Shown here: positions 10,772 to 63,064 of the stretch, piece after piece
Layout: each line of letters starts with the position of its first letter
How positions within the stretch are numbered: position 1 is the stretch's first letter
Assembly: GCF_002024165.1 (NCBI RefSeq)
Contig: NZ_MWQN01000001.1
Span: 1,860,001-1,924,000, forward strand
Reading direction: 5' to 3'
Length of the DNA: 64,000 nucleotides
From: Embleya scabrispora
Lineage (GTDB): Bacteria; Actinomycetota; Actinomycetes; Streptomycetales; Streptomycetaceae
Program-made: the position numbers and the translations under genes
Notes under the pieces: generated by a model
The model's database searches: none
The model's input: only the letters and a program-made list of their open reading frames with translations
Told to the model about the DNA's origin: nothing

Positions 10772-11746
10772 CTATGCCACCAGGGGCGCCAGGCGAGTGC
10801 ACAGCGTGGTCACGTGGGCGCGCACCATGTCCTCGGTCATCCCGCTCAGCGAGGCGAAGAACCACACCGTCTCGATCGGCGTATCGGCTACGTATGCCCG
10901 GATCTCCCGCGCCGCGTCCTCCGGGGTGGTGTGCAGGAAGTGGCCGGGCGCCGCCGACAACCCGCGTGCCCGCCAGCGGTCCGGGTCGATCGGGCGCGGC
11001 GGCTCGGCCCCGGTGCCCTCTACCGCGTACCGGTGGTAGCCGTCCCACTGGTGCGCGAGGTGGCGGGAGACCACCGGCCAGTCCCGCTCCGGGTCCTCGG
11101 TGATCCAGCCGTTGAGCAGCCCGGCCATCCGCGCGGTCGCCGGATCGTGGCCGCCGGCCCGCAGGCCCTCCAGGTACGGCGCGGCCATCGCCGGGTTCGC
11201 GGTGAGCAGCGACTCGCCGAGCAGCCCGGCCCGCCGCGCGCCCTGCGGCCCCTGGTAGCCCAGCCAGATGCGCGGCCGGCGCTGTACGGGCGGCGGGCTG
11301 ATCGTGCCGGTCTCCCACAACCGGCGGATCTCGCGCGCGCTCGCGTCGGTGGCGCCGAATCGGGTCGCGAGCAGGTCGCCCCGGTCGAAGAGGTCGTACT
11401 CGGGCCTGCGGTAGCCGGTGCCGATGCCCAGTTCCAGCCGCCCGCCGCTGACCAGGTCGACGATCGCGGCCTCCTCGGCCAGGTGCGCGGCGTGGCGCAG
11501 CGGCGCGATGGTGACGCCGGTGCCGATCCGGGCCCGCTTCGTGCGCGCGGCGATCGCGGCGGCCAGAGTGAGCGGCTGGCTGAGGTAGCCGTCGTCGAAG
11601 CCGTGGTGCTCGGTGGTCCAGATCGAGTGCACGCCGAGCCGGTCCGCCTCCTCGCACACCTCCAGCGTGAAGGCGTACAGCCGGGACCAGTCCTGCCGCC
11701 ACTCGACGGGATTGCGCAGGTCCAGATAGATGCCGACGTCGACCAT
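10772..11746 (-). CDS. LLM-class (luciferase-like) flavin- or F420-dependent oxidoreductase
   Basis: TIM-barrel oxidoreductase of 324 residues. Family signs are the opening VGIYLDLRNP, WTTEHHGFDDGY (the EHH substrate/cofactor segment), IGTGVTIAPLRHAAHLAEE, and the core VSGGRLELGIGTGYRRPEYD. It may use FMNH2 or coenzyme F420; sequence alone does not settle this. The ATG at 11746 has GGGGAG six bases upstream; a GTG 15 bases earlier overlaps that site and is less likely. It is divergent from a SnoaL-like gene, and the 108-bp gap holds a dyad shared with other accessory genes of this window, so the two are probably co-regulated and act on related compounds. Confidence 0.88.
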   Translation of the reverse strand: MVDVGIYLDLRNPVEWRQDWSRLYAFTLEVCEEADRLGVHSIWTTEHHGFDDGYLSQPLTLAAAIAARTKRARIGTGVTIAPLRHAAHLAEEAAIVDLVSGGRLELGIGTGYRRPEYDLFDRGDLLATRFGATDASAREIRRLWETGTISPPPVQRRPRIWLGYQGPQGARRAGLLGESLLTANPAMAAPYLEGLRAGGHDPATARMAGLLNGWITEDPERDWPVVSRHLAHQWDGYHRYAVEGTGAEPPRPIDPDRWRARGLSAAPGHFLHTTPEDAAREIRAYVADTPIETVWFFASLSGMTEDMVRAHVTTLCTRLAPLVA

Positions 11747-11825: not shown

Positions 11826-11840
11826 CTGACTGGTCGTCAG
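11826..11840. promoter_or_regulatory. dyad operator CTGAC-N5-GTCAG between divergent LLM and SnoaL genes
   Basis: Perfect 5-bp arms with a 5-bp spacer, extended by A/T-rich flanks (ATAT on the left, TTTA on the right). Shape and size fit a TetR-family operator. The same dyad occurs at 43962, 44131 and 61974. Confidence 0.7.
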
Positions 11841-11854
11841 TTTACGGAGGCAGC

Positions 11855-12391
11855 ATGTCGGATTCGATTCCCACCCGGCTCGATCGCCTGGAGGCGTACG
11901 AGGAGATTCGCCGCCTGGCCGCCCGCTACGCACTGGCGCTGGACAGCCGGGACGTGCCGGCGCTGGCCGACCTGTTCGTGCCGGACGTGCGCACGGGGGC
12001 GGGCGGTGTGGGTCGGGCCGCGCTCGCCGAGTGGTTCGATCCGGTGTTGCGCCCGTACGGGATCACCTTCCACCTGATCGGGAACCACGTGATCGACCTG
12101 GTCGACGAGGACCACGCGACGGGTGTCGTGTACTGCCGTCCCGAGCACGAGGTGGGCGACCTGTGGGTGGTGATGCCGATGCAGTATTGGGATCGCTACG
12201 AACGGCGGGACGGGCACTGGTACTTCCGCAGCCGCAAGCCCAGGGCCTTCTACGCCGCCGACGTGCTGGAACATCCGCTGGCCGTCCCGGGGCGCTTCCA
12301 CTTCCCCGACAACCCGATGATCACCGATGCGCAGTTGCCCGAGAAGTGGCCGTCCTGGCGGGAGTTCTGGGCGCGGACCGGGAGCGAGTGA
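11855..12391 (+). CDS. SnoaL-like / NTF2-fold protein
   Basis: A 178-residue cytoplasmic protein with the cone-shaped NTF2/SnoaL_4 fold: an N-terminal helix containing IRRLAARYALALDSRDVPALADLF, then strands ending in WVVMPMQYWDRYERRDGHWYFRSRK. Such proteins act as small-molecule isomerases, dehydratases or hydrolases, or only bind ligands; several are found with catabolic oxidoreductases. ACGGAGG stands about seven bases before the ATG. It is divergent from the LLM oxidoreductase, and the dyad at 11826 lies about 15 bp upstream of the start, where a repressor would block it. The substrate is unknown. Confidence 0.85.
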   Translation: MSDSIPTRLDRLEAYEEIRRLAARYALALDSRDVPALADLFVPDVRTGAGGVGRAALAEWFDPVLRPYGITFHLIGNHVIDLVDEDHATGVVYCRPEHEVGDLWVVMPMQYWDRYERRDGHWYFRSRKPRAFYAADVLEHPLAVPGRFHFPDNPMITDAQLPEKWPSWREFWARTGSE

Positions 12392-31977: not shown

Positions 31978-32543
31978 GACGGGTCCTCGGACGTGTCGCC
32001 CTCCGCCGGGTCCGGCACCGCGAGCACCGCGTCCTCCGCGTCGAGCAGGCCCGGCGGCGGGGTGATCACCGCGCGCTGGTTCTCCAGGTCGATCTCCGGC
32101 ACGATCTGCCGCACGAACGGGATCATCACCTCGCGCCCGTCCGCGCGGCGGACCATGAGCAGGTCCTGCGAGGGCAGGTGGGCCACCTCGGTGATCTCGC
32201 CGACCGCCTCGCCGTCGACCGTGACCACGTCCAGCCCGATCAGCTGGTGGTCGTAGAACTCCTCGGGATCCTCGGGGAGTTCGTCCGGGTCGATCTCGGC
32301 GATCAGCAGCGTGTTGCGCAGCGCCTCGGCGCCGCTGCGGGTGGTCACGCCCTCGATGCTCAGCAGCAGTCGACCGCTGTGCACCCGGCCGTCGGCGATG
32401 GTCAGCGGACCGACTGACGGCGGGTCGGTCATCAGCACCGCTCCGGGCGCGAGCCGCAGTTCGGGCTCGTCGGTACGGACCTCGACGGTCACCTGGCCCT
32501 TGATGCCGTGTGCCTTGCCGATACGGCCGACCACAAGCTGCAC
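31974..32543 (-). CDS. rimM: ribosome maturation factor RimM
   Basis: Assists assembly of the 30S subunit head by binding S19. It has 189 residues with the N-terminal RimM domain ([25 protein letters not shown]), a linker, and the PRC-barrel-like C-terminal part ([31 protein letters not shown]). The start is GTG/ATG at 32543. It overlaps trmD by four bases; a strong hairpin separates it from khpA upstream. Confidence 0.96.
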
Positions 32544-43961: not shown

Positions 43962-43976
43962 CTGACGCACCGTCAG
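43962..43976. promoter_or_regulatory. dyad operator CTGAC-N5-GTCAG (distal copy, peptide importer)
   Basis: Perfect 5-bp arms with a 5-bp spacer, flanked by ACAT and TTAG. It is 296 bp upstream of the importer start codon and 155 bp upstream of the second dyad. It could bind a second dimer for looping or control a promoter of its own. Confidence 0.6.
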
Positions 43977-44130: not shown

Positions 44131-44145
44131 CTGACGACCCGTCAA
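44131..44145. promoter_or_regulatory. dyad operator CTGAC-N5-GTCAA (proximal copy, peptide importer)
   Basis: One mismatch from the perfect dyad; the left flank is GCTTAA, as in the better copies. It sits about 127 bp before the importer start codon, just after the candidate -10 element: a repressor position. Confidence 0.6.
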
Positions 44146-44271: not shown

Positions 44272-45222
44272 GTGTTGCGCCTGCTCGGTCGCAAGTTGCT
44301 GGCCCTGATTCCGGTGCTGTTCCTGGTCACCTTCGCGACCACGGCCCTGCCCGACCTGGTGGACGGTTCACCGGTCGCCCAGATGCTCGGCCCCGGTTCC
44401 ACGCCGCAGGACCTCAAGGACCTGGAGCACGAGTTCGGGTACGACAAGTCGCTGCCCGTCCGATACGTGACCTGGGTGGGCGATGCGCTCACCGGCGACC
44501 TCGGGGAGTCCCTGAAGACCCGGACCTCCGTCATGGACGGCATCGCCGAACGTTTCCCCGTGACCCTGGAACTCGCCGTCTTCGCCCTGCTCATGGCCCT
44601 GATCGTGGCCGTACCGCTGGGCGTGTGGACGGCCGCCAAGGCCGGCGGCCGGGTGGACCGCGTGATCGGCGGCGTCTCCTCCGGACTGCTGTCCATCCCC
44701 ACCTTCGTGAGCGTGTTCATCCTCGTCTACTTCTTCGCCAACCCGAAGATGATGCTCGCGTTCAAGCCGACCGGATGGGAGTACATCTCGGTCGACTTCG
44801 CCAAGAACATCGAGTTCGCGTTCCTGCCCGCGCTCGCCCTCGCGCTCGCCGAGATCCCGCAGTTCCAGCGCCTGTTGCGCAGCGACATGCTGGCCACGCT
44901 GCAGGAGGACTTCATCCTCACCGCGCGCTCCAAGGGACTGTCCACGCCGTACGTGCTCTTCCGGCACGCGTTGCGGCCCTCGTCGTTCTCGCTGCTGACC
45001 GTCTCCGGGCTGACCCTGGGCCGGTTGATCGGCGGTACCGTCATCGTCGAGTCCTACTTCGCCATCCCCGGACTGGGACAGGGCATGTACCAGGCGATCA
45101 ACGGCAAGGACATCCCCGTGGTCCAGGGCACGGTCGTGGTCATCGCGCTCATCTACGTACTGCTCAACACGCTCGTGGACATCGGCTACTCCCTCATCGA
45201 CCCGAGAGTGAGGGCCCGATGA
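44272..45222 (+). CDS. peptide/nickel-type ABC transporter permease (DppB-like)
   Basis: Inner-membrane permease of the oligopeptide/dipeptide family, 316 residues, with about six helices. Typical parts are the N-terminal LLGRKLLALIPVLFLVTFATT, the GDLGESLKTRTSV region and the EAA loop YVLFRHALRPSSFSLLTVSGLTLG, ending with NTLVDIGYSLIDPRVRAR. I chose the GTG at 44272 because an AGGGGG site lies about ten bases upstream; an ATG at 44218 has none. It overlaps the next permease gene by ATGA. First gene of the importer operon. Confidence 0.93.
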   Translation: MLRLLGRKLLALIPVLFLVTFATTALPDLVDGSPVAQMLGPGSTPQDLKDLEHEFGYDKSLPVRYVTWVGDALTGDLGESLKTRTSVMDGIAERFPVTLELAVFALLMALIVAVPLGVWTAAKAGGRVDRVIGGVSSGLLSIPTFVSVFILVYFFANPKMMLAFKPTGWEYISVDFAKNIEFAFLPALALALAEIPQFQRLLRSDMLATLQEDFILTARSKGLSTPYVLFRHALRPSSFSLLTVSGLTLGRLIGGTVIVESYFAIPGLGQGMYQAINGKDIPVVQGTVVVIALIYVLLNTLVDIGYSLIDPRVRAR

Positions 45223-46121
45223 GCACACTCGAAACCGCCCCCGCCGTCGGCGCGACCCCCGCGACGGTGGCCGCCGCCAAGACCGGCAAGGCGCGCAAGC
45301 GGCCGAGCTTTTTGCTGTGGTTCGCCATCGCGTGGATGGCGATCGTGCTGCTCGGCGCGCTGCTCAGCCTCGTCGCCTCCGGCGTCTTCCCGCACGGGTA
45401 CGACAAGGCGTTCGGCGAGGCCAAGCAGGCACCGTTCGGCAGTTGGCCGGAATTCCTCGGCACCGACGGCCTCGGCCGCAGCCACCTGACCCGGCTCGCC
45501 TTCGGCGCGCGCGTATCGATGATCGTCGCGCTGGTGTCGGTCGTGGTCGGCGTGCTCGTCGGCGGCCTGCTCGGTTTGGTCGCCGCCTACTTCCGCGGCG
45601 TCACCGAGATGGTCATCGACCTGTTCTCCGACGCGCTGCTCGCCTTCCCGCCGCTGATCCTGCTGCTCGCGCTGTCCTCGGTGTACGAGCCGTCGCAGAC
45701 CAGCATCACCGCGGGACTGGCCGTGCTCACCATCCCCGGCTTCACCCGGCTGACCAAGGCGAGCGCGATCGCCCAGTCCAACCGCGAATACGTCACGGTG
45801 GCCAAGGCGATGGGGGCGGGTCCGGGTCGGATCATCTTCAAGGAACTGCTGCCCAACACCTTCCCCGCGGTGATGTCCTACTCGGTGATCGTGATGGCCG
45901 TGCTGATCGTCGCGGAGGGCTCGCTGTCCTTCCTCGGGCTCAGCATCCCGCCGCCGATGCCCAGTTGGGGCGGCATGATCAACTCCGCGAAGGACGATCT
46001 GTCGCTGTATCCGTCCCAGGTGTTCGTGCCCTGCGCCGTGCTGTTCCTGACCGTCTTCTCGCTCAACGTCATCGGCGACCGGCTGCGCGCGAAGTTCGAC
46101 GTCCGCGACACCAAGCTGTAG
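45219..46121 (+). CDS. peptide/nickel-type ABC transporter permease (DppC-like)
   Basis: Second permease subunit, 300 residues. An N-terminal helix follows an Ala-rich cytoplasmic start; then LGTDGLGRSHLTRLAFGARVSMIVAL, as in all DppC proteins, and the EAA loop GAGPGRIIFKELLPNTFPAVMSYSVI. It ends SLNVIGDRLRAKFDVRD. Translationally coupled to the first permease. It pairs with the two ATPases that follow. Confidence 0.94.
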   Translation: MSTLETAPAVGATPATVAAAKTGKARKRPSFLLWFAIAWMAIVLLGALLSLVASGVFPHGYDKAFGEAKQAPFGSWPEFLGTDGLGRSHLTRLAFGARVSMIVALVSVVVGVLVGGLLGLVAAYFRGVTEMVIDLFSDALLAFPPLILLLALSSVYEPSQTSITAGLAVLTIPGFTRLTKASAIAQSNREYVTVAKAMGAGPGRIIFKELLPNTFPAVMSYSVIVMAVLIVAEGSLSFLGLSIPPPMPSWGGMINSAKDDLSLYPSQVFVPCAVLFLTVFSLNVIGDRLRAKFDVRDTKL

Positions 46122-46250
46122 CCGCGGCACCGGCGACGGCCGCCCCCGAACGGCCGTCGCCGGTGCCCTGCTTCGACCCCATCACACAGACGGGACCGCT
46201 CTCATGAATGGGATCCAACGGCCGCGCGGCACGAAGGTGGCGTGGTGACC

Positions 46251-47339
46251 ATGGCGGAGCCAACCACGACCGGCTCGCCCATGCCGGACGAACCCCTGCT
46301 GCGGGCCGAGGACCTGCGGGTGCACCTGGACACCCCGCGCGGCCTGCTCAAGGCCGTGGACGGCGTGTCGTTCGCCATCGAACGCGGCGAAACCCTCGGC
46401 CTGGTCGGCGAGTCCGGCTCGGGCAAGTCGATGCTGGTGCGCTCGCTGATGGGCATCTGCCCCTCGATCGCCAAGATCCAGGGCAGCGTGCGCCTGGACG
46501 GACGCGAACTGGTCGGGGTGCCGCGCAAGGAGGCCCGGAAGATCTGGGGCAACCGGATCGCGATGGTCTTCCAGGACCCGATGACCTCGCTCAACCCGGT
46601 GTTGCGGATCGACCGCCAGCTCACCGAGTCGATGCGGCTGCACCTGGGCCTGGGCAAGAAGGAGGCGGGCGAGCGGGCGATCGAACTGCTCACGCTGGTC
46701 GGCATCCCCGAACCGCTCAAGCGCTCCCGGCAGTACCCGCACCAGCTCTCCGGCGGCATGCGCCAGCGGGTGACCATCGCGATGGCGCTCGCCTGCGACC
46801 CCGACGTGCTGATCGCGGACGAGGCCACCACCGCCCTGGACGTGACCGTGCAGCGGCAGATCCTCGACCTGCTCCAGGAGATCCAGGCGGAGCGCGGCAT
46901 GGGCATGATCCTGGTCAGCCACGACCTGGGCGTGGTGGCCGGACGCACCGACCAGATCGCCGTGATGTACGCCGGTCGCATGGTCGAACACTCGCCCACC
47001 GCCGAGCTGTTCGCGCATCGCCGGCACCGCTACACCGAGGCCCTGCTCGGCGCCGTGCCGCGCCTGGACGTGCCGCGGGACCAGCGGCCGCGCGCGATCC
47101 CGGGCAGCCCGCCCGACCTGATCACGCTGGCCTCCGGGTGCGCGTTCGCGGCCCGCTGCGGCGCGGCCGACGACCTGTGCCGCGCGCAACGCCCCGAGTT
47201 GGGCGAGGACCTGGGCACGCACCGGTTCGCCTGCCACCACCCGGTCGGCACCGACGCGCCGGCCGGCGGCGGCGCCGACGCCGCCTCGGGCACCGGCGCC
47301 GACGAGAAGCCGTCCCTGATGAAGGAGACCCCCGCATGA
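46251..47339 (+). CDS. peptide ABC transporter ATP-binding protein (DppD-like)
   Basis: ATPase of 362 residues. Walker A is GESGSGKSM, the Q-loop is MVFQDPMTSLNPVLRI, the signature is LSGGMRQR, and the Walker B is VLIADEATTALD. The C-terminal oligopeptide-type extension (SPPDLITLASGCAFAARCGAADDLC) contains cysteines typical of this group. AAGGTGG lies ten bases before the ATG at 46251; GTG codons at 46242 and 46245 are alternatives. Its stop overlaps the start of the second ATPase (ATGA). Confidence 0.94.
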   Translation: MAEPTTTGSPMPDEPLLRAEDLRVHLDTPRGLLKAVDGVSFAIERGETLGLVGESGSGKSMLVRSLMGICPSIAKIQGSVRLDGRELVGVPRKEARKIWGNRIAMVFQDPMTSLNPVLRIDRQLTESMRLHLGLGKKEAGERAIELLTLVGIPEPLKRSRQYPHQLSGGMRQRVTIAMALACDPDVLIADEATTALDVTVQRQILDLLQEIQAERGMGMILVSHDLGVVAGRTDQIAVMYAGRMVEHSPTAELFAHRRHRYTEALLGAVPRLDVPRDQRPRAIPGSPPDLITLASGCAFAARCGAADDLCRAQRPELGEDLGTHRFACHHPVGTDAPAGGGADAASGTGADEKPSLMKETPA

Positions 47340-48469
47340 CGGCCGACGACACCGCGCCGGGCGCGCTCGCCCTCGACGACAAGCCCGCGGCCGCCACGGG
47401 TACCGACCCGCTGCTCACGGTCACCGACCTGGTCCAGCGTTTCCGAGTGCCCGGCGGGATGATGAACGCCGTCGCCGGGGTCAGCTTCGAACTCGGCCGC
47501 GGCCGCACCCTCGGCCTGGTCGGCGAGTCCGGCTGCGGCAAATCCACCCTCGCCCGCGCGATCCTGCAGCTGACCAAGCCGTCCGAGGGCTCGGTGCGGT
47601 TCGACGGGCAGGAGTTGACCACGCTGCCCAAGGCGGGCCTGCGCACCATGCGCCGGCGCATCCAGATGGTGTTCCAGGACCCCATCTCGGCGCTGAACCC
47701 GCGCCGCAAGATCTTCGACATCGTCGCCGAGGGCCTGGTCATCTCCGGTCTGCCCGCCGAGCAGATCCGCCCGCGCGTGGAGGCGGTGCTGCGTCAGGTG
47801 GGGCTGGACCCGGAGCTGGTCTCCGATCGCCGGCCGCACCAGTTCTCCGGCGGCCAGTGCCAGCGCATCGCCATCGCCCGGGCCATGGTCGTCGACCCCG
47901 ACCTGCTGATCTGCGACGAGCCGGTGGCCTCGCTCGACGTGTCGGTCCAGGCGCAGGTGCTGGACCTGCTCGACGAGATGAAGCACCGCACCGGCGTATC
48001 GATGATCTTCGTCGCGCACGACCTCGCGGTGGTGCGCAACATCAGCGACGACGTCGCGGTGATGTATCTGGGCACCATCGCCGAGACCGGGGACACCGCG
48101 GCGATCTACGACACGCCCGCGCACCCGTACACCCGGGCCCTGCTGGACGCGGTGCCCGCGCCCGACCCGGCGGCCGCCCCGTCCGGTCCCGCGCTCGGCG
48201 GCGAGATCCCCTCGCCGATGAACCCGCCCAGCGGGTGCCGATTCCGCACCCGCTGCCCGATCGCGCGCGCGGAGTGCGCCGCGCATGTGCCCACGCTGCG
48301 CGAGATCGCGCCGGGACACCGGGTCGCGTGTCACTTCCCGCTGGTGGGCGAGGCGGCGGTGTTCGCCGAAGAGGCGATCGCCGACGCGCCCAAGGCCGAG
48401 GCGGCGCCCGCCGCCGCGGCGGCCGAACCCACTCCGGAAGCCGGGCGCGAGGCCCCGAAGCAGGGCTGA
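47336..48469 (+). CDS. peptide ABC transporter ATP-binding protein (DppF-like)
   Basis: Second ATPase, 377 residues: Walker A GESGCGKST, Q-loop MVFQDPISALNPRRKI, signature FSGGQCQRI (Phe instead of Leu, a usual DppF/OppF variant), Walker B LLICDEPVASLDVS. The C-terminal domain has PPSGCRFRTRCPIARAEC, the Fe-S-like cysteine set of this family, and an Ala/Glu-rich tail. With the preceding three genes it forms a complete transporter core served by five binding proteins downstream. Confidence 0.94.
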   Translation: MTADDTAPGALALDDKPAAATGTDPLLTVTDLVQRFRVPGGMMNAVAGVSFELGRGRTLGLVGESGCGKSTLARAILQLTKPSEGSVRFDGQELTTLPKAGLRTMRRRIQMVFQDPISALNPRRKIFDIVAEGLVISGLPAEQIRPRVEAVLRQVGLDPELVSDRRPHQFSGGQCQRIAIARAMVVDPDLLICDEPVASLDVSVQAQVLDLLDEMKHRTGVSMIFVAHDLAVVRNISDDVAVMYLGTIAETGDTAAIYDTPAHPYTRALLDAVPAPDPAAAPSGPALGGEIPSPMNPPSGCRFRTRCPIARAECAAHVPTLREIAPGHRVACHFPLVGEAAVFAEEAIADAPKAEAAPAAAAAEPTPEAGREAPKQG

Positions 48470-48680: not shown

Positions 48681-50282
48681 GTGGCACACGCACGACCTTT
48701 CGCCCTTCGGGCCCGCCGCCGCGCCGCCGCCGTCGTCGCGGTGATCGGCCTGCTGGCCGCGGCCGGCTGCGGCTCCGACTCCGGTGAGCCGCCCAGCGCG
48801 GTGGGCACGCCCCGGGCCGGCGGCTCGCTGGACATCCTGGCCACCTCCGACGCGCGCAGCCTCGACCCCTTCCTGCCCTCCTACGCCGCGCAGGCCGACG
48901 GCAACCGGATGGCGGCGCTGTACGACAGCCTGTTGTGGACGAACCCGGTCACCGGCTCCGTACAGCCGCAGTTGGCGGAGAGCCTGAACCCGGTGGAGGG
49001 CAGCGGGAACAAGATCTGGAGCCTGCGCATGCGGCCCAATCTGAGGTTCACCGACGGCACCGTCTTCGACGCCGCGGCGGTCAAGATCAACTGGGACACG
49101 CACGCGGTGCCCACCACCAACTCCCGCCAGCGCGACGCCACCGTCGGGATGAAGAGCCAGATCGGCGCGGACGCGCTGGAGTTGCGGATCATCCTGGACA
49201 AGCCGAACGGCAACTTCGACCGCCTGGTCGCGCGCAGCCTGTCCTTCATCGCCTCGCCCAAGGCGATCGCCGAGGGCGTCGACAAGCTGGCCGAACACCC
49301 GGTCGGCGCCGGTCCGTTCATGCTGGCCCCGGGCGGCTGGGTCAAGGGCGACCATCTGACCCTGGTGAAGAACCAGACCTACTGGCAGGGTCCGACCAAG
49401 CCGTATCTGGACTCCATCACGTTCCGCTACGAGTCGAGCGGCACCGCGGCGGTCGACCGGGTCAAGAAGGGCAAGGCCGACGTCGCCAACGTCAGCGACG
49501 CGTTCACCCTCAAGGCCGCGCGCGCGGCCGGGATCGGTATCGAGTCCCTGGCACTGTCCGGCGGGCAGCTGCTCAGCTTCGACACCTCCGGCGGCCCGAC
49601 CGCCAACCCGGACGTGCGGCGCGCGATCGTACTGGCGCTGAGCAGCGAGGAGATCAACCGGCGCGTGTTCGGCGGCGCCGGCACCCCCGCCCGCGGCATC
49701 TTCAACCAGGCCACCGCGCTGGCCAATCCGCAACTGTCGGCGCCGGAGAACAAGCCGCAGCAGGCGGCCGAGCTGTTCGCCAAGGTGACCGACAAGGGCG
49801 CCAAGCCGATGCGGATCAAGTTCATCGCGCCCAAGAGCGCCGCGATCGACGAACTCGGCCGCTACATGAAGGAGACGCTGGAGAAGTTCCCCGGCGTCAC
49901 TCTCGACGTGGAGACCGCCGACCTCTCCGAGTTCGTCAAACGATCGAATCTGGCCGACGCGTTCGACGTCAAGGTCAGCCAACTCCTCGCGGACGACCCG
50001 GAGCCGGTGGTCTACCAGTACCTGCACCGCGGCAGCCCGGGCAACTGCTGCTTCTACGGCGACGACGCGGTGGACCGCTCGCTCGACGAGGCGCGCAACA
50101 CCACCGACCCCTCCCGCCGGCGCGCCGCCTACACCCAGCTCCAGCTGCAGTTGGACCGCGACATGCCGCTGTGGGTCTACCAGGAGGCGGTGGTCGCGGG
50201 CGTGTTCCACTCCGGGATCACCGGCGTGCAGCTGTGCAACGACGGCATCTTCCTGTTCGACCGGCTCGGCAAAAAGGGCTGA
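48681..50282 (+). CDS. ABC transporter substrate-binding lipoprotein, family 5 (copy 1 of 5)
   Basis: Exported receptor of the peptide importer, SBP_bac_5 family, 533 residues. It has a basic start, a hydrophobic segment and the lipobox LAAAGC (Cys30). The domain begins at GGSLDILATSDARSLDPF, and the family signature is LRFTDGTVFDAAAVKINWDTH. It contains a Cys-Cys pair (GNCCFYGDDAV) absent from the other copies. I chose the GTG at 48681 since GAGGA lies eight bases upstream; an ATG at 48666 has no such site. It follows the second ATPase by 211 bp. Confidence 0.93.
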   Translation: MAHARPFALRARRRAAAVVAVIGLLAAAGCGSDSGEPPSAVGTPRAGGSLDILATSDARSLDPFLPSYAAQADGNRMAALYDSLLWTNPVTGSVQPQLAESLNPVEGSGNKIWSLRMRPNLRFTDGTVFDAAAVKINWDTHAVPTTNSRQRDATVGMKSQIGADALELRIILDKPNGNFDRLVARSLSFIASPKAIAEGVDKLAEHPVGAGPFMLAPGGWVKGDHLTLVKNQTYWQGPTKPYLDSITFRYESSGTAAVDRVKKGKADVANVSDAFTLKAARAAGIGIESLALSGGQLLSFDTSGGPTANPDVRRAIVLALSSEEINRRVFGGAGTPARGIFNQATALANPQLSAPENKPQQAAELFAKVTDKGAKPMRIKFIAPKSAAIDELGRYMKETLEKFPGVTLDVETADLSEFVKRSNLADAFDVKVSQLLADDPEPVVYQYLHRGSPGNCCFYGDDAVDRSLDEARNTTDPSRRRAAYTQLQLQLDRDMPLWVYQEAVVAGVFHSGITGVQLCNDGIFLFDRLGKKG

Positions 50283-50377
50283 CCGGTCATCGGAAGTACA
50301 ACGGTGACCCGATCTTGATGGACCCGTTCGCCGGAAGGCAGTAGAAAGGGACGGCGCCCTTACCAGTCGGTTCGTGG

Positions 50378-50408
50378 AGGCCGGGAATCATTCCTCGATT
50401 CCCGGCCT
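50378..50408 (+). terminator. terminator after binding-protein copy 1
   Basis: A perfect 12-bp stem AGGCCGGGAATC with GATTCCCGGCCT, 7-base loop, 95 bp after the stop. The remaining 50409-50621 is CA-rich leader of the next gene; no other feature is seen in this 340-bp gap. Confidence 0.85.
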
Positions 50409-50621
50409 TCACGCATCTCGTCTCCAGGTCGCAGACAGTCGAGTACTCCCGTACACCCCGTACCACCGCACGACAGCACAACCGCACGGACGCACCACCA
50501 TGCTCCACCCGGGGCACCGTCGCCCTCTCCCCCCGAGTCGGCCGGCGCCCCCGGCACCAAGCACGTCCGCCGCCCGGGCCCGGTTGCCCGGACGGTCCGT
50601 CAGGTGAAGGTTGGCCTTGCA

Positions 50622-52238
50622 GTGACTCGTACTTCCCTGTTGTCCCTTCGATCCTCGTGTCGTACCCGCCGCCGGATAGTCGCGCTGATCGCGGCGACCG
50701 CGCTGGCCGGCGCCCTCGCCGGCTGCGGGAACGACGACGACACCAAACCGTCGGCCGCGGGCACGCCCAAGCAGGGCGGCTCGCTCACGATGAGCCTTCC
50801 GGGCGACTCCACGAGCCTGGACCCCTTCTCCACCTCGTATGTGAACGTCGCCGACGGAAGTCGGATGTCCGCGCTCTACGACTCGCTGGTGTGGACCGAT
50901 CCCACCACCGGCAGCGTGCGCCCGCAGCTCGCCGAGTCGCTGGCCGTCCTCGGCACCAAAGCCGACACGTGGCGACTCAAGCTCCGCCCCAACGTGAAGT
51001 TCAGCGACGGCACGGTGTTGGACGCCGAGGCGGTCCGCTTCAACTGGGACCGGCACAAGGACCCCAAGGTCGGTTCCTTCCAGCGGGGTGCGGCGAGCAA
51101 CATCCTCTCGCTCACCGTCACCGACCCGCTCACCCTCGACGTCAAACTGATCTCCGAGAACGCGAACTTCGACCACCTGGTGACCCGTTCGCTCGCCTTC
51201 ATCGCCTCGCCCACCGCACTGCGGGCCAGCCCGACCGGAATCGCCGACAAGCCGGTCGGCGCGGGCCCCTACAAGCTGGTGACGTGGGAGCGCGGGGTCA
51301 AGCAGACCTTCACCCGCAACCCCGACTACTGGCAGCGCGAGAAGGGGCTGCCGCACCTGGACAACCTGACCATCACCGTGGACACGGACGTCACCCACTC
51401 GGTGGCGGCGGTCGACGACGGCAAGACCGATCTCACCGTCGCGGTGGACCCCCTCGCCGTCGCGCAGGGCGAGGACAAGAAGCTCGGCGTGTTGCGGATC
51501 GGCCTCAACGGCGGCCAGATGGTCGTGTTCAACATGAACGTCGCGCCGTTCAAGGACCTGCGCGCCCGCCGCGCGTTCGTCTTCGCGTTCAGCGGCGCCG
51601 AGATCAACCAGAAGTTCTTCGGCGGCAAGGGCATCCCCGCCAAGGGCATCTTCGCGGCGTCCTCTCCCGTCGCCAACATCCAGCTGGCCGCGTCGGAGAA
51701 CGACAAGCAGCGGGCGAAGGAACTCTTCGACGACGTCACCGCGAACGGCACCAAGCCGATCAAGTTCACGTACTGGGTGCCGCAGGCCCCGGCCTCGATC
51801 CGGGTCGCGGAGTACATGAAGCAGGTGCTCGGCACCTATGCCGGCGTCGAGATGGAGGTCAAGGTCGTCGACATCGCGACCTACGTCAAGACCGTCCGCG
51901 GCGGCGGCAGCACCGAATGGCAGGCCGCCCTAGGGCAGCAGTGGATCGACGACCCGGAGCCGGGCATCTACGATCTCCTGCACGGCAAGAGCATGACGAA
52001 CAACAGCGGTTACGAGAACGCCTCGGTCGACACCGCGCTCGAGGACGCGCGCAGGACGACCGACCCCGCGGCCCGACGTGACGCGTACACGCGTGTACAG
52101 CTGCAGGTGAACAAGGACATGCCGTTCTGGGTGTACCAGGAAGCGGTCACCGCCGCGATCTACGCCCCCAGGATCACCGGCGTCCAGCTGATGAACGACG
52201 GCATCGTCCTGTGGGACCGGATCGGCACCACCGGCTGA
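50622..52238 (+). CDS. ABC transporter substrate-binding lipoprotein, family 5 (copy 2 of 5)
   Basis: Paralogue of copy 1, 538 residues, lipobox ALAGC (Cys35). Conserved blocks: GGSLTMSLPGDSTSLDPF, RMSALYDSLVWTDPTTGSVRPQLAESL, FSDGTVLDAEAVRFNWDRH and WVYQEAVTAAIYAPRITGVQL. Close to copy 3 in the ALYD block. The start is uncertain between GTG 50604 and 50622; I prefer the second because AAGG lies about 11 bases upstream. The preceding 213 bases have their own leader and, with the upstream terminator, suggest independent transcription. Confidence 0.92.
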   Translation: MTRTSLLSLRSSCRTRRRIVALIAATALAGALAGCGNDDDTKPSAAGTPKQGGSLTMSLPGDSTSLDPFSTSYVNVADGSRMSALYDSLVWTDPTTGSVRPQLAESLAVLGTKADTWRLKLRPNVKFSDGTVLDAEAVRFNWDRHKDPKVGSFQRGAASNILSLTVTDPLTLDVKLISENANFDHLVTRSLAFIASPTALRASPTGIADKPVGAGPYKLVTWERGVKQTFTRNPDYWQREKGLPHLDNLTITVDTDVTHSVAAVDDGKTDLTVAVDPLAVAQGEDKKLGVLRIGLNGGQMVVFNMNVAPFKDLRARRAFVFAFSGAEINQKFFGGKGIPAKGIFAASSPVANIQLAASENDKQRAKELFDDVTANGTKPIKFTYWVPQAPASIRVAEYMKQVLGTYAGVEMEVKVVDIATYVKTVRGGGSTEWQAALGQQWIDDPEPGIYDLLHGKSMTNNSGYENASVDTALEDARRTTDPAARRDAYTRVQLQVNKDMPFWVYQEAVTAAIYAPRITGVQLMNDGIVLWDRIGTTG

Positions 52239-52250
52239 TCGTCGCACCCC

Positions 52251-52283
52251 GTCCCGCCCGGAATCCGTGACCCCGGGCGGGAC
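52251..52283 (+). terminator. terminator after binding-protein copy 2
   Basis: A perfect 11-bp stem GTCCCGCCCGG with CCGGGCGGGAC, 11-base loop, 12 bp after the stop. Confidence 0.85.
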
Positions 52284-52453
52284 GCCCCGGGCGCATCCGG
52301 GTCCGTCCCTCCCCCGAACCGCGGACGGGCCCGATCCCTCCGCCGATCCGCGCCCTCGCACCACAGCGCTACCGCACTTTCGGAACGACTGCACGACTGC
52401 ACCGACGCACGACGCACGTTCGAACCCCACAGTGATAGGTAGGTAGGCCGGCA

Positions 52454-54061
52454 GTGGTACCCGTTAAGAAGACACCCTTGCCACCAGGACGCCGCGGCCC
52501 GCGCCGCCGGCTCTCGCTCACCCTCGCGCTCGCGGCGGCGACGGTGCTGGCCGCGGCGGGCTGCGGGCTGGGCTCTCCCGACTCCAAGGGCTCGTCCGGC
52601 GAGCCTCCGCACGGCGGTTCGGTGACGATCCTGATGCCGGGGGAGGAACGCGGGCTCGATCCGTTCACCGCGTCCTACTCCAGCGTCGCCGACTCGAACC
52701 GACTCTCCGCGCTGTACGACGTCCTCGTGTGGACCGATCCCACCACGGGCGGGGTGCGCCCGAAGCTGGCCGAGTCGCTGGTGTCGGACCAGACCTCCCG
52801 GATCTGGACACTGACACTGCGTTCGGACGTGCGCTTCACCGACGGCAGCCTGCTCGACGCCGGCACGGTCAAGGCCAACTGGGAGGCGCATCGCGACCCT
52901 TCGGTGCGTTCGCTGGTCGGCGGGCCGCTGCAGAAGGTGCAGCTGACCGAGGTGTCGGCGCTCCAGTTGAAGATCGAACTGCCGTCACCCAACGCGAACT
53001 TCGACCACACGGTGGCCCGCAACCTGTCGTTCGTGGCCCCCCGCCGGCTGGCCGCGACCCCGGAGGGCCGCTTCGAGCTCAAGCACGCGCCGGTCGGCGC
53101 GGGCCCGTTCAAGCTCAAGAGCTGGGAGCCGGGCAGGGAACTGCGCCTGGAGCGCAACCCCCAGTACTGGCAACGCGATCGCCCCTACCTGGACGAGGTG
53201 GTCTTCCGGGTCGACAAGGACGCGGAGTCGGGCAACAAGACGATCCGCGCGAAGCGGGCCGACCTCACACTGAGCACCGATCCGCAGAGCATCGCCCAGG
53301 CCCGCGCGGACGGGCTCGTCGTCGAGGACGCCCGGCTCAACGGCGGCCTGATGGTCGCCTTCAACGTGCGCAAGGGCCCCTTCCAGGACCCGAACGCCCG
53401 CCGGGCGATGGCGCTCGCGCTGAGCAGTACGGAGATCAACCGGCGCTTCTACGGCGGCCGGGACGACTCGGCGCGGGGCATCTTCGACGCCTCCTCGCCG
53501 CTGGCGAACGTCAACCTGGCCGCGCCGGAGAACCGCCCGGAGGAGGCCAGGGCGCTGTTCGCGCAGATCACCGCGAACGGGAAGAAGCCGTTCGTCTTCC
53601 GCTATCTGGTGCCCGACGCGGGCAAGATGCGGGACACCGCCGAGTACATCCGGCAGACCCTGGAGGGCTATCCGGGCGTAACCGTGATCGTCGAGGTCAC
53701 CGACATGGCCTCGCTGGTGACCCGGCTGGCCGGCAACGACTTCGACGCCACCGTGTGTCAGCTGTGGGCCGACGACGTGGAACCGACGATCTATCAGTTC
53801 CTGTACAGCAAGGCCGGGTTGAGCAATATCACCGGCTACGCCAACGACATCGTGGACGCCGCGCTGGAGGACGGCCGACGCTCCACCGACGCCGCCTCGC
53901 GACGCGACGCCTACACCCGGCTGCAGAACCAGGTCAATCGTGACCTGCCGTTCTGGGTCTACTCGTCGGCGGTGATCGGCGCGGTCCACCGCTCCGACGT
54001 GGTCGGGATCCAGCTGTACAACGACGGGCTGATCCACTTCGACGCCATCGGGCGGCGCTGA
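52454..54061 (+). CDS. ABC transporter substrate-binding lipoprotein, family 5 (copy 3 of 5)
   Basis: Paralogue of 535 residues with a Lys/Arg-rich start, hydrophobic stretch and lipobox LAAAGC (Cys37). Blocks GGSVTILMPGEERGLDPF, LSALYDVLVWTDPTTGGVRPKLAESL and FTDGSLLDAGTVKANWEAH align with copies 1 and 2. GTG start at 52454, with AGGTAGG upstream. The preceding 170 bases again contain a CA-rich leader. Confidence 0.93.
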   Translation: MVPVKKTPLPPGRRGPRRRLSLTLALAAATVLAAAGCGLGSPDSKGSSGEPPHGGSVTILMPGEERGLDPFTASYSSVADSNRLSALYDVLVWTDPTTGGVRPKLAESLVSDQTSRIWTLTLRSDVRFTDGSLLDAGTVKANWEAHRDPSVRSLVGGPLQKVQLTEVSALQLKIELPSPNANFDHTVARNLSFVAPRRLAATPEGRFELKHAPVGAGPFKLKSWEPGRELRLERNPQYWQRDRPYLDEVVFRVDKDAESGNKTIRAKRADLTLSTDPQSIAQARADGLVVEDARLNGGLMVAFNVRKGPFQDPNARRAMALALSSTEINRRFYGGRDDSARGIFDASSPLANVNLAAPENRPEEARALFAQITANGKKPFVFRYLVPDAGKMRDTAEYIRQTLEGYPGVTVIVEVTDMASLVTRLAGNDFDATVCQLWADDVEPTIYQFLYSKAGLSNITGYANDIVDAALEDGRRSTDAASRRDAYTRLQNQVNRDLPFWVYSSAVIGAVHRSDVVGIQLYNDGLIHFDAIGRR

Positions 54062-54083
54062 TGGACGGCTGACCCCACGGATC

Positions 54084-54139
54084 CGGCCGGGTGGCCGCCA
54101 CGACGCCGCGCTTCGGGCGCCGCCGGCACCACCCGGCCG
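54084..54139 (+). terminator. terminator after binding-protein copy 3
   Basis: CGGCCGGGTGG pairs with CCACCCGGCCG (11 bp), with a smaller GC-rich hairpin inside the loop. Confidence 0.7.
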
Positions 54140-54207
54140 TGCACCACCGCACCACCACATCCGGTCCGAACGGGGACCGGTGTGCCTTGTGACAACGGAG
54201 GAGTCAC

Positions 54208-55794
54208 ATGAGCAAGCACCACGGCACCATCGCACGACGGCGTACGGCGGCCCTCGCCGGCGCCTCGGTCCTGGCCCTGACCCTCGCCGCGTGCGGCGGC
54301 GGGGACGACGCCGCGGGCGGAAAGGCGGACCCGAACGCCTCGGCGGGCGCGAAGAAGGGTGGCAACCTCACCCTGCTGACCGTGTCCGACGCCCGCAGCA
54401 TGACGCCGTTCAACGCGTCCTACGCGGCGGTCACCGACCTCAACCGCATGCTCGCGGTCTACGACGCGCTGTTCTACGTCGACAACACGCAGAACAAGGT
54501 CGTCCCGCAGATCGGCGAGAGCCTGAAGAGCGACGACGGCGGCAAGACCTGGGTGCTCAAGGTCAAGCCGAACGTCAAGTTCAGCGACGGCACCCCCCTG
54601 GACGCCGCGGCGGTCAAGTTCAACTGGGAGATGCACGCCAAGCCGGAGGTGCTCAGCCAGCACCGCCCGGCCGCGTCCGGCCTGGGGTTGGAAGTGGCCG
54701 ACCCGCTGACGCTCAGGGTCACCCTGCCGATGCCGAACGCCAACTTCGACCGCACCGTGGCCACGGAGTTGTCCTACATCGAGTCGCCCAAGCAGTACGG
54801 GATCGACCCGAAGGGCGAACGGCCGGTGGGCGCGGGGCCGTTCATCCTCAAGACCTGGAACCGGGACAGCCAGATGGTGTTCGAGAAGAACCCCGACTAC
54901 TGGCAGGGCGCGGACAAACCGTATCTGGACACGCTGACCATCAAGGTGGTCAACGACGTCAAGCAGCAGGTCGACACGATCAAGGCCGGCGGCGCCGACA
55001 TCACCTTCACGATCGACGCGCAAAAGACCAAGGCCGCCCAGGAGGCGGGCCTGGGCGTCACGCCGTTCACCCTCGACGGCGGCCAGATGATCGTGTTCAA
55101 CACCTCGCAGGCGCCGTTCGACGACCCGCGCGCCCGGCGCGCGGTCGCGCTCGCGCTCGACCCGGCCGACCTGAACCAGAAGATGTTCGCGGGCACGGCG
55201 ACCCCGGCCAAGAGCATCTTCCACAGCGGCAAGAACTTCACCGACCCCACCGCCGCGCAGCCGAGCCCGAACAAGGCCGAGGCGCAAAAGCTCTTCGACG
55301 AGTTGGCGGGCGAGGGCAAGCCGGTCAAGTTCAGCTACCTGGTCCCGGAGAACCCGACCTCCAACGCGACCTCCGAATACACCATGACGGCGCTGAACGC
55401 CTTCAAGAACGTCGAGGTCAAGCTCGACAAGGCCGAGGTCGGCAGTTACTACCTGCGACTGACGGTGCAGAAGAACTACACCGCGGCGCTGTACCAGATC
55501 TGGTCCAGCGACCCGGAACCGATCCTGTTCAACAGCCTGTTCTCGCAGACTCCGCTCAACTTCACCGGCTACAAGAGCCCCGAGGCGGACGGGGCGCTGA
55601 TCAAGGGCCGCTCCACCACCGACGAGACGGTGCGCAAGGCCGCCTACGCGGATCTGCAGAAGGCGCTGGTCAAGGATCTGCCGATGCTCGCCTACCAGGA
55701 GGCGGTCACCAACATCATCTCCGGCCCCCGGGCCGTGGGTGTGGTCGGCGTCCAGGACGGTGGCATGCTGATGGACCGGGTCGGGCTGAAGTAG
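54208..55794 (+). CDS. ABC transporter substrate-binding lipoprotein, family 5 (copy 4 of 5)
   Basis: Paralogue of 528 residues, lipobox LTLAAC (Cys29). It and copy 5 form a second subgroup: the ALYD block reads MLAVYDALFYVDNTQNKVVPQIGESL, and both use LFY where copies 1-3 use LLW/LVW. The family signature is FSDGTPLDAAAVKFNWEMH. ACGGAGGAG lies eight bases before the ATG, the best ribosome-binding site among the five, so this may be the most strongly translated copy. Confidence 0.94.
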   Translation: MSKHHGTIARRRTAALAGASVLALTLAACGGGDDAAGGKADPNASAGAKKGGNLTLLTVSDARSMTPFNASYAAVTDLNRMLAVYDALFYVDNTQNKVVPQIGESLKSDDGGKTWVLKVKPNVKFSDGTPLDAAAVKFNWEMHAKPEVLSQHRPAASGLGLEVADPLTLRVTLPMPNANFDRTVATELSYIESPKQYGIDPKGERPVGAGPFILKTWNRDSQMVFEKNPDYWQGADKPYLDTLTIKVVNDVKQQVDTIKAGGADITFTIDAQKTKAAQEAGLGVTPFTLDGGQMIVFNTSQAPFDDPRARRAVALALDPADLNQKMFAGTATPAKSIFHSGKNFTDPTAAQPSPNKAEAQKLFDELAGEGKPVKFSYLVPENPTSNATSEYTMTALNAFKNVEVKLDKAEVGSYYLRLTVQKNYTAALYQIWSSDPEPILFNSLFSQTPLNFTGYKSPEADGALIKGRSTTDETVRKAAYADLQKALVKDLPMLAYQEAVTNIISGPRAVGVVGVQDGGMLMDRVGLK

Positions 55795-56105
55795 CCGATC
55801 CCTCGCGCCGGATCGTTCCCGGCCGGATCCGACGCATCGTCACCGACGGTGTCCGGGAGGCCCGTTCGCACATCGCGGACGGGCTTTCCCGGCCGGTTCC
55901 GCGGGGCCGTGCGGGGCGAGGTTCCGACACGATTCAACGACTGCCTGTAACGATGTAACAGATCGGCGTACAGGTCGTGCATGTTGCGCCGAGTGGATCT
56001 ACGGTGTGCCGCACGCAGTACCGATTCGGCAGTCCCCGCTCCACGCTCCACGCTCAAGGCTCCCGGCACCACTTGTGTTGTTCCCCGGCGGAGGTGGCAA
56101 GAACG
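55795..56105. other. gap between binding-protein copies 4 and 5, with terminator at 55860-55884
   Basis: GCCCGTTCGC pairs with GCGGACGGGC (one wobble) and is followed by TTTCCC, a likely terminator. The remainder is the leader of copy 5; an in-frame ATG at 55977 lies within it, but the residues it would add do not look like a signal peptide. Nothing else is seen. Confidence 0.65.
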
Positions 56106-60685: not shown

Positions 60686-61870
60686 CTACTCGCCGATCAG
60701 CGCGTCCACGAACGCCGACGGCTCGAACGGCGCCAGATCGTCCGGCCCCTCCCCGAGCCCGATCAACTTCACCGGCACGCCCAACTCCCGCTGCACCGAA
60801 ACCACGATGCCCCCCTTGGCGGTCCCGTCCAGCTTCGTGAGCACGATGCCGGTGATGTCCACCACCTCCGCGAACACCCGAGCCTGGACCAGCCCGTTCT
60901 GCCCGGTCGTGGCATCCAGCACGAGCAGCACCTCGTCCACCGGCCCGTGCTTCTCCACCACCCGCTTGACCTTGCCCAGCTCGTCCATCAGCCCGGTCTT
61001 GGTGTGCAGCCGCCCGGCGGTGTCCACGAGCACCGTGTCCACACCCTCGGCGATGCCCTCCTTGACCGCGTCGAACGCGACGCTGGCCGGGTCCCCGGCC
61101 TCCGGCCCCCGCACGGTACGGGCGCCCACCCGCTCGCCCCACGTCTGCAACTGGTCGGCCGCCGCGGCCCGGAACGTATCGGCCGCGCCCAGCACCACGC
61201 TGCGCCCGTCGGCCACCAGCACCCGAGCCAGCTTGCCCGTCGTGGTGGTCTTGCCGGTCCCGTTGACGCCCACCACCAGCACCACGGCCGGCCGGTCGCC
61301 CGCCTCTCCCCCGGTGTGCCGGGCGGTCTTCAGCGTACGGTCCAGGTCCGGCCCGACCAGCGTGAGCAGCTCCTCGTGCAGCAGCGCCCGCAGATCGGCC
61401 GGCGTCCGCGTACCGAGCACCTTCACCCGCGTGCGGAGCCGATCCACCAGCTCCTGCGTGGACGCGACGCCGACGTCGGCGGTCAGCAGGGTGTCCTCGA
61501 TCTCCTCCCAGGTGTCCTCGTCCAGGTGCTCGCGCGCGAGCAGGGCCAACAGCCCCTTGCCCAACGAGGTCTGCGAACGGGCCAGCCGGGCCCGCAGCCG
61601 GACCAGCCGACCCGCCGTGGGGTCGGGAATCTCCAGCGGCGCCGGTTCCGGCTCGGCCGGCACCACCACCGTGGTCTCCGGCAGGTCGACCGTGTCGACG
61701 CTGCGCCGCGGCGCCTCGACACTCGGCGCGGCCTCGTCACCGACACCCGGCTCGGCCGGCGTGCGCGGCGGCGCCGGCGGGAGGCCCTTGCGGCGCGAGC
61801 CGACCACGAACCAGCCGGCGGCGCCGAGGACGACAAGGGCAATGACGACGATCAGGATCACAGTCTCCAT
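60686..61870 (-). CDS. ftsY: signal recognition particle receptor FtsY
   Basis: Membrane-associated SRP receptor GTPase, 394 residues. It has an N-terminal transmembrane helix (residues 4-24), an acidic, proline-rich linker, then the NG domain with GVNGTGKTTTTGKLARVL, DTAGRLHTKTGLMDEL and LTKLDGTAKGG. The ATG at 61870 has TGGAGG five bases upstream. Works with Ffh, encoded at 37861. Its neighbour in this group is normally smc, here separated by a luciferase-like gene. Confidence 0.97.
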   Translation of the reverse strand: METVILIVVIALVVLGAAGWFVVGSRRKGLPPAPPRTPAEPGVGDEAAPSVEAPRRSVDTVDLPETTVVVPAEPEPAPLEIPDPTAGRLVRLRARLARSQTSLGKGLLALLAREHLDEDTWEEIEDTLLTADVGVASTQELVDRLRTRVKVLGTRTPADLRALLHEELLTLVGPDLDRTLKTARHTGGEAGDRPAVVLVVGVNGTGKTTTTGKLARVLVADGRSVVLGAADTFRAAAADQLQTWGERVGARTVRGPEAGDPASVAFDAVKEGIAEGVDTVLVDTAGRLHTKTGLMDELGKVKRVVEKHGPVDEVLLVLDATTGQNGLVQARVFAEVVDITGIVLTKLDGTAKGGIVVSVQRELGVPVKLIGLGEGPDDLAPFEPSAFVDALIGE

Positions 61871-61973: not shown

Positions 61974-61988
61974 CTGACACTGCGTCAG
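61974..61988. promoter_or_regulatory. dyad operator CTGAC-N5-GTCAG upstream of the second LLM gene
   Basis: Perfect arms with a 5-bp spacer, right flank ATAGC. It is 84 bp before the start codon of the LLM oxidoreductase and about 100 bp before the divergent ftsY. Same motif as at 11826 and 43962. Confidence 0.65.
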
Positions 61989-62071: not shown

Positions 62072-63064
62072 ATGGCTGTCACGAATCTGCGGTTCAACCA
62101 GGTCCTCCCCGGTCTCGACCGGCAGGAGATGTCCGCCCGCTACCGGGCCACCGTCGAGATGGCGGCCTTCGCGGACAAGAACGGGTTCGACATGATCAGC
62201 CTGGAGGAGCACCACGGCGCGGACAACGCCTGGAGCCCGTCACCGCTGAGCACCGCGGGAGCGATATTCGGCGCCACCGAGCGCATCGGCGTGATCGTCT
62301 GCGCGCTGCTCGCCCCGCTCTACGACCCGATCCGGCTCGCCGAGGACATCGCCGTCCTGGACAACATCAGCGGCGGCCGGCTCTCCCTGGTCGCGGGCAT
62401 CGGCTACCGGCCCGAGGAGTACGCGGCGCTCGGCAAGGAGTGGAAGCGGCGCGGGAAGATCCAGGACGAGGTCCTGGAGACCCTGCTCAAGGCCTGGACC
62501 GGCGAGCCGTTCGAATACCGCGGCACCACCGTACGGGTCACCCCGAAGCCGTTCACCGACCCGCACCCGATGGTCATGGTCGGCGGCACCGCGAAGGCCT
62601 CCGTGCGCCGCGCGGTCCGGCTGCGCCTGCCGTTCTACGCGGCGGCGCCGATCCCGGAGCTGGAGCGGTACTACTACGAACTCGCCGCGGAGGAGGGCTT
62701 CGAGGGCGGCTTCGCGATCCTGCCGCCGGTGAAGACCCGGATGATCTTCTGCACCGAGGACCCGGACAAGGCGTGGGCCGAGTACGGCGAATACTTCCTG
62801 CACGAGGCCACCACCTACGCCGGCTGGCAGACTCCCGACATAGCCTCCGTCGTCGAGTCGTCGGCCACCACCGTGGCGGCGCTGCGCGAGGAGGGCATCT
62901 ACTGCTGCCTCACCCCCGACGAGTGTGTCGAGATCGGGCAGGTCGGCGGCCTCACCGACGCGCTGATCCTGCACCCGCTGGTCGGCGGCCTGCCGATCGA
63001 CGCGGGCTGGGCCAGCCTGCAGTTGTTCAACGACAAGGTCATGCCGCGCAACGTCCCGGCGTAA
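62072..63064 (+). CDS. LLM-class (luciferase-like) flavin- or F420-dependent oxidoreductase
   Basis: 330-residue TIM-barrel monooxygenase/reductase. Family segments: RFNQVLPGLDRQEMSARYRA, FDMISLEEHHGADNAWSP, PLYDPIRLAEDIAVLDNISGGRLSLVAGIGYRPEEYAALG and MVMVGGTAKASVRRAVRLRLPFY. The cofactor (FMNH2 or F420) cannot be decided. GGAAGGTG lies 11 bases before the ATG. It sits between ftsY and smc, where streptomycetes usually have no such gene as far as I recall, so it is probably an insertion. The dyad upstream suggests control with the peptide importer and with the LLM gene at 10772. Confidence 0.9.
   Translation: MAVTNLRFNQVLPGLDRQEMSARYRATVEMAAFADKNGFDMISLEEHHGADNAWSPSPLSTAGAIFGATERIGVIVCALLAPLYDPIRLAEDIAVLDNISGGRLSLVAGIGYRPEEYAALGKEWKRRGKIQDEVLETLLKAWTGEPFEYRGTTVRVTPKPFTDPHPMVMVGGTAKASVRRAVRLRLPFYAAAPIPELERYYYELAAEEGFEGGFAILPPVKTRMIFCTEDPDKAWAEYGEYFLHEATTYAGWQTPDIASVVESSATTVAALREEGIYCCLTPDECVEIGQVGGLTDALILHPLVGGLPIDAGWASLQLFNDKVMPRNVPA

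Follow-up and report, generated by a model that had tools for sequence, protein, structure and literature searches.

The window, by which we mean the whole stretch of 64 kb analysed here (G000:C1:1860001-1924000, in a genome, G000, of 10,958,352 bases), carries several copies of the inverted repeat CTGAC-N5-GTCAG, hereafter the dyad. The copies and their neighbouring genes are given below, with scores from a position weight matrix (PWM); the dyads are unstranded.

10772..11746, minus strand: luciferase-like monooxygenase (LLM; PF00296), 79 bp from the dyad at 11826
11826..11840, unstranded: perfect dyad CTGACTGGTCGTCAG with TAT...TTT flanks, in the divergent promoter of the LLM and SnoaL-like genes; PWM 27.0
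11855..12391, plus strand: SnoaL-like protein (PF13577), 14 bp from the dyad at 11826
43962..43976, unstranded: perfect dyad CTGACGCACCGTCAG, 295 bp before a peptide-importer permease gene and 323 bp from amtB; PWM 27.6
44131..44145, unstranded: near-dyad CTGACGACCCGTCAA, 126 bp before the permease start; PWM 16.0
44272..48469, plus strand: four genes for opp/dpp-type permeases and ATPases, all except the first named by eye
50589..50603, unstranded: weak candidate site CGGACGGTCCGTCAG; the second solute-binding-protein gene starts 18 bp further on, at 50622; PWM 12.4
60686..61870, minus strand: ftsY, a housekeeping neighbour (TIGR00064 above cut-off), its called start 103 bp from the dyad at 61974
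61974..61988, unstranded: perfect dyad CTGACACTGCGTCAG, between ftsY and an LLM gene; PWM 23.8
62072..63064, plus strand: second luciferase-like monooxygenase, 83 bp from the dyad at 61974

The first permease of the importer set matches Opp/Nik models below their cut-offs, and from 48741 to 57692 that single importer set is followed by five successive solute-binding-protein genes (named by eye). A preliminary description of this DNA had placed perfect copies at 11826, 43962 and 61974, and all three are there; it had counted a single copy with one mismatch, at 44131, when in fact there are three, at 44131, 32414 and 50589, the one at 32414 lying within a rimM-like gene (named by eye). Allowing up to one mismatch, the window holds six matches against a shuffle mean of 2.74, and six were reached in 9 of 100 shuffles. 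Taken alone, these six matches are unremarkable, and it is the genome-wide count that decides.

Across the 10.96 Mb of the genome the dyad occurs 116 times. All spacings from N0 to N14 together yield 187 copies, with the 14 spacings other than N5 sharing 71, or about 5 each. The reversed pattern at N5 has 0 copies in this genome; because that control is unfair in coding sequence, where its codons are rare, we also used the other spacings and codon-pair expectations. Every copy was classified with our own gene caller, site flanks were fetched, and the background sample included twelve random 20-kb stretches of the same genome: 68 of the 116 copies are noncoding, whereas noncoding DNA makes up 18.7% of the 1.48 Mb sampled. 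The noncoding copies share the form A-n-CTGACG-nnn-CGTCAG-n-T (consensus AnCTGACGnnnCGTCAGnT). Of their 136 half-sites, 66 have A at -2 (or T at +2), and 41 of the 68 copies are A/T at the centre, the overall A+T being 29%. The PWM was trained on these noncoding copies, such that its scores are circular for them but not in other genomes; the window copies (27.0, 27.6 and 23.8, and 16.0 at 44131) score alongside operators with a matrix trained partly on them. Among the 47 noncoding copies scoring at least 21, none lies between convergent genes and 22 lie between divergent ones, where the background of intergenic bases is 16% convergent and 30% divergent. Positions within 300 bp upstream of gene starts account for 55 of the 68 noncoding copies and 40 of the 47 strong ones, against 3356 of 4800 random noncoding positions; because the noncoding copies are only slightly nearer to starts than random, we take upstream placement as weak evidence and give more weight to orientation and flanks. 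The enrichment of the motif, its spacing and its consensus are direct observations.

What kinds of genes lie next to these copies? Ten dyads fall within 65 kb inside the stretch G000:C1:3770001-3850000, in and beside a catabolic cluster, one of them before hemB and nine among catabolic genes. The genes by these nine encode CoA ligases, acyl-CoA dehydrogenases, crotonases, a thiolase, SDRs, a flavin reductase, an amidohydrolase and a CoA-transferase pair, families that were assigned partly by profile models and for the remainder by eye. The CoA-transferase subunits match the solved chains 6co6/6co9/6con, which we take to be IpdAB, at 5e-98 and 2e-84, and a perfect dyad lies 111 bp before the crotonase-ipdAB gene series. 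Genome-wide, the 55 proteins adjoining the stronger noncoding copies include adh_short (5), Bac_luciferase (4), ECH_1 (3) and SnoaL_4 (3), with CoA-transferase III, AMP-binding, thiolase and acyl-CoA dehydrogenase at 2 each, while 55 random proteins gave ECH_1 and Bac_luciferase once each among the families listed, a comparison that covers the 25 of 73 families listed for the dyad set and the 25 of 83 listed for the random set. The 55-protein set is not independent of what suggested it, since the one cluster supplied 15 of its members and the window another 5. The preliminary description had assigned the dyad to accessory genes only, and this does not hold: the copy at 61974 is shared with ftsY at 103 bp, the one at 43962 lies 323 bp from amtB, and noncoding copies also stand upstream of hemB, serA, rpe and a WhiB-like gene (identified by eye from the protein start), with Pfam families of the rpe and serA type occurring among the dyad-adjoining proteins. 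The further suggestion that the regulon serves uptake and oxidation of a compound was too narrow, since the core is beta-oxidation-type and ring catabolism.

Within the catabolic cluster, about 1.9 Mb from the window, lies the gene for a TetR protein of 216 amino acids that we call T1 (G000:C1:3832722-3833369). Its C-terminal domain matches PF19352 (TetR_C_38) at 220.5 bits, with a cut-off of 23.9, and a profile of T1 aligns with solved TetR regulators across the HTH, where the AGTSPATFYQYF region is nearly invariant in 13 homologues; PF00440 stayed below the reporting level in T1, not reaching 1e-5. By eye, T1 is the only transcription factor common to the clusters of G000, G003, G100 and G104, and it is found near dyads in five families. 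The preliminary description had seen no regulator gene beside any copy, but a near-copy spans T1's own start codon, a KstR-like TetR gene (T2) has a perfect copy in its divergent promoter (locus L054), and MarR- and LysR-like genes (by eye) adjoin other copies.

Strict dyads and T1 occur together across genomes. Of 246 genomes in the class, 43 carry T1, 22 of these belonging to the genome's own order, and their strict dyads have a median of 11; in the 203 lacking T1 the median is 0 (p=4e-22). T1 presence here means E<1e-30, a threshold set once the list had been viewed, and the rank tests take no account of shared descent. The association persists with the own order and family f15 left out (p=1e-8), and inside each of two families, f16 (7 genomes with T1 and 5 without, p=0.008) and f20 (6 and 14, p=0.006). 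The own order itself gives no contrast, because T1 is present in 146 of its 147 genomes; G002, which lacks T1, has no strict dyad. There are exceptions in both directions, namely G167 and G176 with T1 and no strict dyad (the T1 match of G176 holds a TGA), and G286 with 10 dyads (68% complete) and G288 with 5 where T1 was not found. Those two aside, genomes without T1 have at most 4 strict copies each, and among large ones G269 (10.7 Mb) has 1 copy, G229 (9.2 Mb) 0 and G367 (8.6 Mb) 0.

The T1 gene also tends to carry a site of its own. Between -420 and +60 of the aligned start, T1 loci across families have a site scoring above 8 in 18 of 21 cases and above 16 in 12 of 21, and random sequence gave 1 match above 16 in 240 kb. 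Most of these near-start sites are imperfect. The loci lacking a near-start site above 8 are those of G017, G176 and G167, and at the G017 locus there is in addition none above 17 within 20 kb. In one genus, g2, a near-dyad lies over the T1 start codon in 29 of 29 loci, 28 of them identical, with the left arm intact and the right arm one base off. The left arm is likewise invariant in 80 named Streptomycetaceae T1 loci (L273-L352, from Streptomyces, Streptacidiphilus and Actinacidiphila), an invariance that is not specific to the site because most of a block of about 55 bp upstream of T1 is invariant as well. In the fetched flanks of these 80 loci, a site above 20 is present in 67, and the sites above 19 are noncoding in 136 cases and coding in 1; in five of the six loci displayed, some 2.5 kb from T1, two sites separate an acyl-CoA dehydrogenase gene from one of thiolase type. 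The nearly invariant T1 leader of the 80 loci, about 55 bp, exceeds the length that an operator needs.

In related genomes, all the strict dyads that we read in G003 (8) and G011 (3) are noncoding; the first loci of G100 and G104 have 11 noncoding out of 16, and G017 has 7 out of 14. Those of G003, G011, G100 and G104, in regions chosen by their dyads and with T1 on the same contig in each, precede LLM, CoA ligase, isochorismatase-like, amidohydrolase, thiolase and DUF35-type genes (by eye), and the same gene types stand behind dyads in loci of families f14 and f16 that were chosen around T1. In both of these families a perfect or near dyad lies between a crotonase gene and an SDR gene next to T1, as it does in G000; it is noncoding in 5 loci and called coding in one more. 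G017 shows no such pattern of catabolic genes, and the other 7 of its 14 dyads are coding. Conservation of the motif in orthologous promoters, proposed earlier as a check on the regulon, is found for the core cluster and not for the LLM at 11826, where 0 of 6 homologues (48-59% identity) have a site and the homologues sit in different gene surroundings. Synteny, co-occurrence and the sites at T1 are, like the enrichment, direct observations.

We consider it probable, judging from sequence comparisons, that the dyad is the operator of T1, which would be an autoregulated TetR-family repressor with a regulon centred on acyl-CoA and steroid-ring genes. We infer that a T1 dimer would occupy A-n-CTGACG-nnn-CGTCAG-n-T in promoters and block transcription there, and that T1 would be freed from its operator by some intermediate of the catabolism, an acyl-CoA or steroid-ring CoA thioester being plausible. 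The core of the regulon would consist of ipdAB, crotonase, acyl-CoA dehydrogenase, CoA ligase, thiolase and SDR genes, with dispersed members among LLM, SnoaL, amidohydrolase and transporter genes, including the three window promoters, and T1 would regulate its own gene too. For the copy at 11826, we infer activity from its form and from the network, because its own conservation is absent before the six LLM homologues. The earlier idea of a scattered regulon with metabolic targets, LLM and SnoaL genes among them, under probably one regulator, probably of the TetR family, is supported.

It is also possible that the dyad serves another regulator that we have not seen, with T1 merely a conserved target gene in the same cluster. 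Co-occurrence and synteny cannot tell a regulator from a constant target, and in G017, which bears T1, half of the dyads read are coding. We nonetheless regard this as unlikely, in view of T1 being the sole shared transcription factor (by eye) in the four clusters, of the near-start site kept at 18 of 21 T1 loci, and of how few dyads there are where T1 is absent within f16 and f20 (with G286 and G288 as exceptions). A separate candidate for the regulator would be T2 (L054:6099-6725), whose perfect dyad lies 119 bp before the gene in a promoter divergent with a CoA-transferase III gene. T2 resembles KstR, in that the NCBIfam KstR model gives it 93 bits (cut-off 280) and KstR structure chains score best, and its neighbours are catabolic (by eye). 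But the 59 other genomes searched contain no protein close to T2 (the best match, at 4.9e-20, is 38% identical over 135 residues), and dyads abound in the order despite this lack; moreover, the KstR operator as given in the accessible portion of its description, TnnAACnnGTTnnA, differs from the dyad (PMC1995591). On the missing homologues in the relatives searched we rejected T2, which we hold to be very unlikely as the regulator. For the T2 homologues of G003 and G011 we set aside an apparent dyad, which lies over an aligned coding region (Leu-Thr-x-Arg-Gln). T2, which also neighbours a P450-like gene (by eye), may add a second tier to this catabolic control.

A different kind of explanation is that the dyad acts mainly in RNA, as a terminator-like hairpin at gene ends, and not as an operator. 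In G000, a stop codon is embedded in 9 of the 68 noncoding copies, and family f15 offers more in this direction, as 8 of its 12 noncoding copies lie between convergent genes and several have stop codons inside, some containing those of both convergent genes. The placement of an intrinsic terminator is not what G000 displays, where none of the 47 high-scoring copies is convergent and 22 are divergent; the preferences at flanks and centre fall outside the stem, and relatives have copies before the same gene types. We find the hairpin highly improbable. Family f15 deserves a separate description: its genomes (G158, G227 and G197; L238-L241 and L258-L272) hold 109-218 strict copies of CTGACGNNNCGTCAG per 4.3-5.5 Mb, with neither a promoter bias nor A/T flanks, 9 copies being coding, and in G158 the copies are evenly spread among those listed over the first 3 Mb. 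These may be another element with the same letters, of gene-end type by its look. One could also speculate that T1 founds a global network: the dyad would be a promoter operator in Streptomycetales, and in f15 the repressor, or its site alone, would have become a chromosome-wide element for termination or nucleoid organisation, with widely spread and often gene-end copies. The T1 profile matches the TetR-family protein SlmA at 1.6e-4; we would call such a network quite unlikely.

The remaining alternative, that chance and codon usage make CTG ACN NNN NGT CAG recur in genes, has a negligible probability in our estimation and is refuted for the noncoding copies by their noncoding bias and the N5-specific excess: it leaves the 68 noncoding copies untouched and accounts for perhaps 11 of the 47 in-frame coding ones, and large genomes without T1 hold few strict copies. 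It does have something to build on, in that 47 of the 48 coding copies (of 116 in all) share one frame, reading Leu-Thr-x-x-Gln, and L-T-x-[RGSC]-Q is about twice as common at the dyad spacing when written with other codons. Such a preference at the protein level explains only about a twofold excess, when the 47 in-frame copies stand against about 6 expected from codon pairs, an eightfold excess or so that appears only at N5 and only with the exact letters. Part of the excess therefore sits at the DNA level, as codon pairs and protein preference fall short and the coding copies likewise lean to an A/T centre (23 of 48). Similar density inside genes and next to unrelated ones had been named beforehand as an outcome that would speak against a regulon, and something of both is seen, in the in-gene excess and in the few housekeeping neighbours.

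How does this network compare with known TetR systems? EthR is the best solved relative of T1 by profile (3.7e-11), sharing the TetR architecture over profile positions 20-192. EthR acts locally, on a monooxygenase gene, and is not known to govern a scattered catabolic regulon. Among the 18 hits of T1 to solved chains at E<=0.01, none is named KstR or KstR2. KstR2 is a TetR repressor whose operator is not known to resemble the dyad. It governs ipdAB and neighbouring HIP genes (PMC5380842), and the cluster described here likewise holds IpdAB-like subunits, by sequence, whereas the proposed T1 network is dispersed and extends to LLM, SnoaL and importer genes. KstR (Rv3574) is an autoregulated TetR regulator with 16 and 31 other motif copies and 74 and 83 predicted lipid-degradation genes in M. 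tuberculosis and M. smegmatis, respectively (PMC1995591); one autoregulated TetR protein, operators scattered over lipid genes and the logic of inference are alike, as far as the accessible portion of that work goes. The KstR operator given there is 14 bp and even, in contrast to the odd 15 bp of CTGACG-nnn-CGTCAG here. T1 is not KstR, because the operators differ and the KstR equivalog model does not match T1, being absent from its two matches at 1e-5. SRTF1 of Nocardioides simplex is a steroid-responsive TetR regulator acting outside KstR and KstR2 (PMC7807495), similar to T1 in its TetR type; we set it beside T1 by its description in the accessible part of that paper. By analogy, the T1 network would work like KstR and KstR2, with one autoregulated TetR repressor and operators over lipid and steroid genes.

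Searching the open-access literature by the letters of the motif, we found no earlier description of the dyad as an operator, a search that could miss an operator worded differently, and we found no papers there on TetR_C_38/PF19352 or on a Streptomyces TetR with cholesterol. The operator and regulator proposed here would belong to a catabolic network found across the order, including a genus that matches Streptomyces. The proposal would also cover steroid-ring genes of the ipdAB type beyond the mycolic-acid actinobacteria, the group in which KstR2 is known as their regulator. If it is right, many uncharacterised LLM, SnoaL and amidohydrolase genes would become testable members of one pathway.
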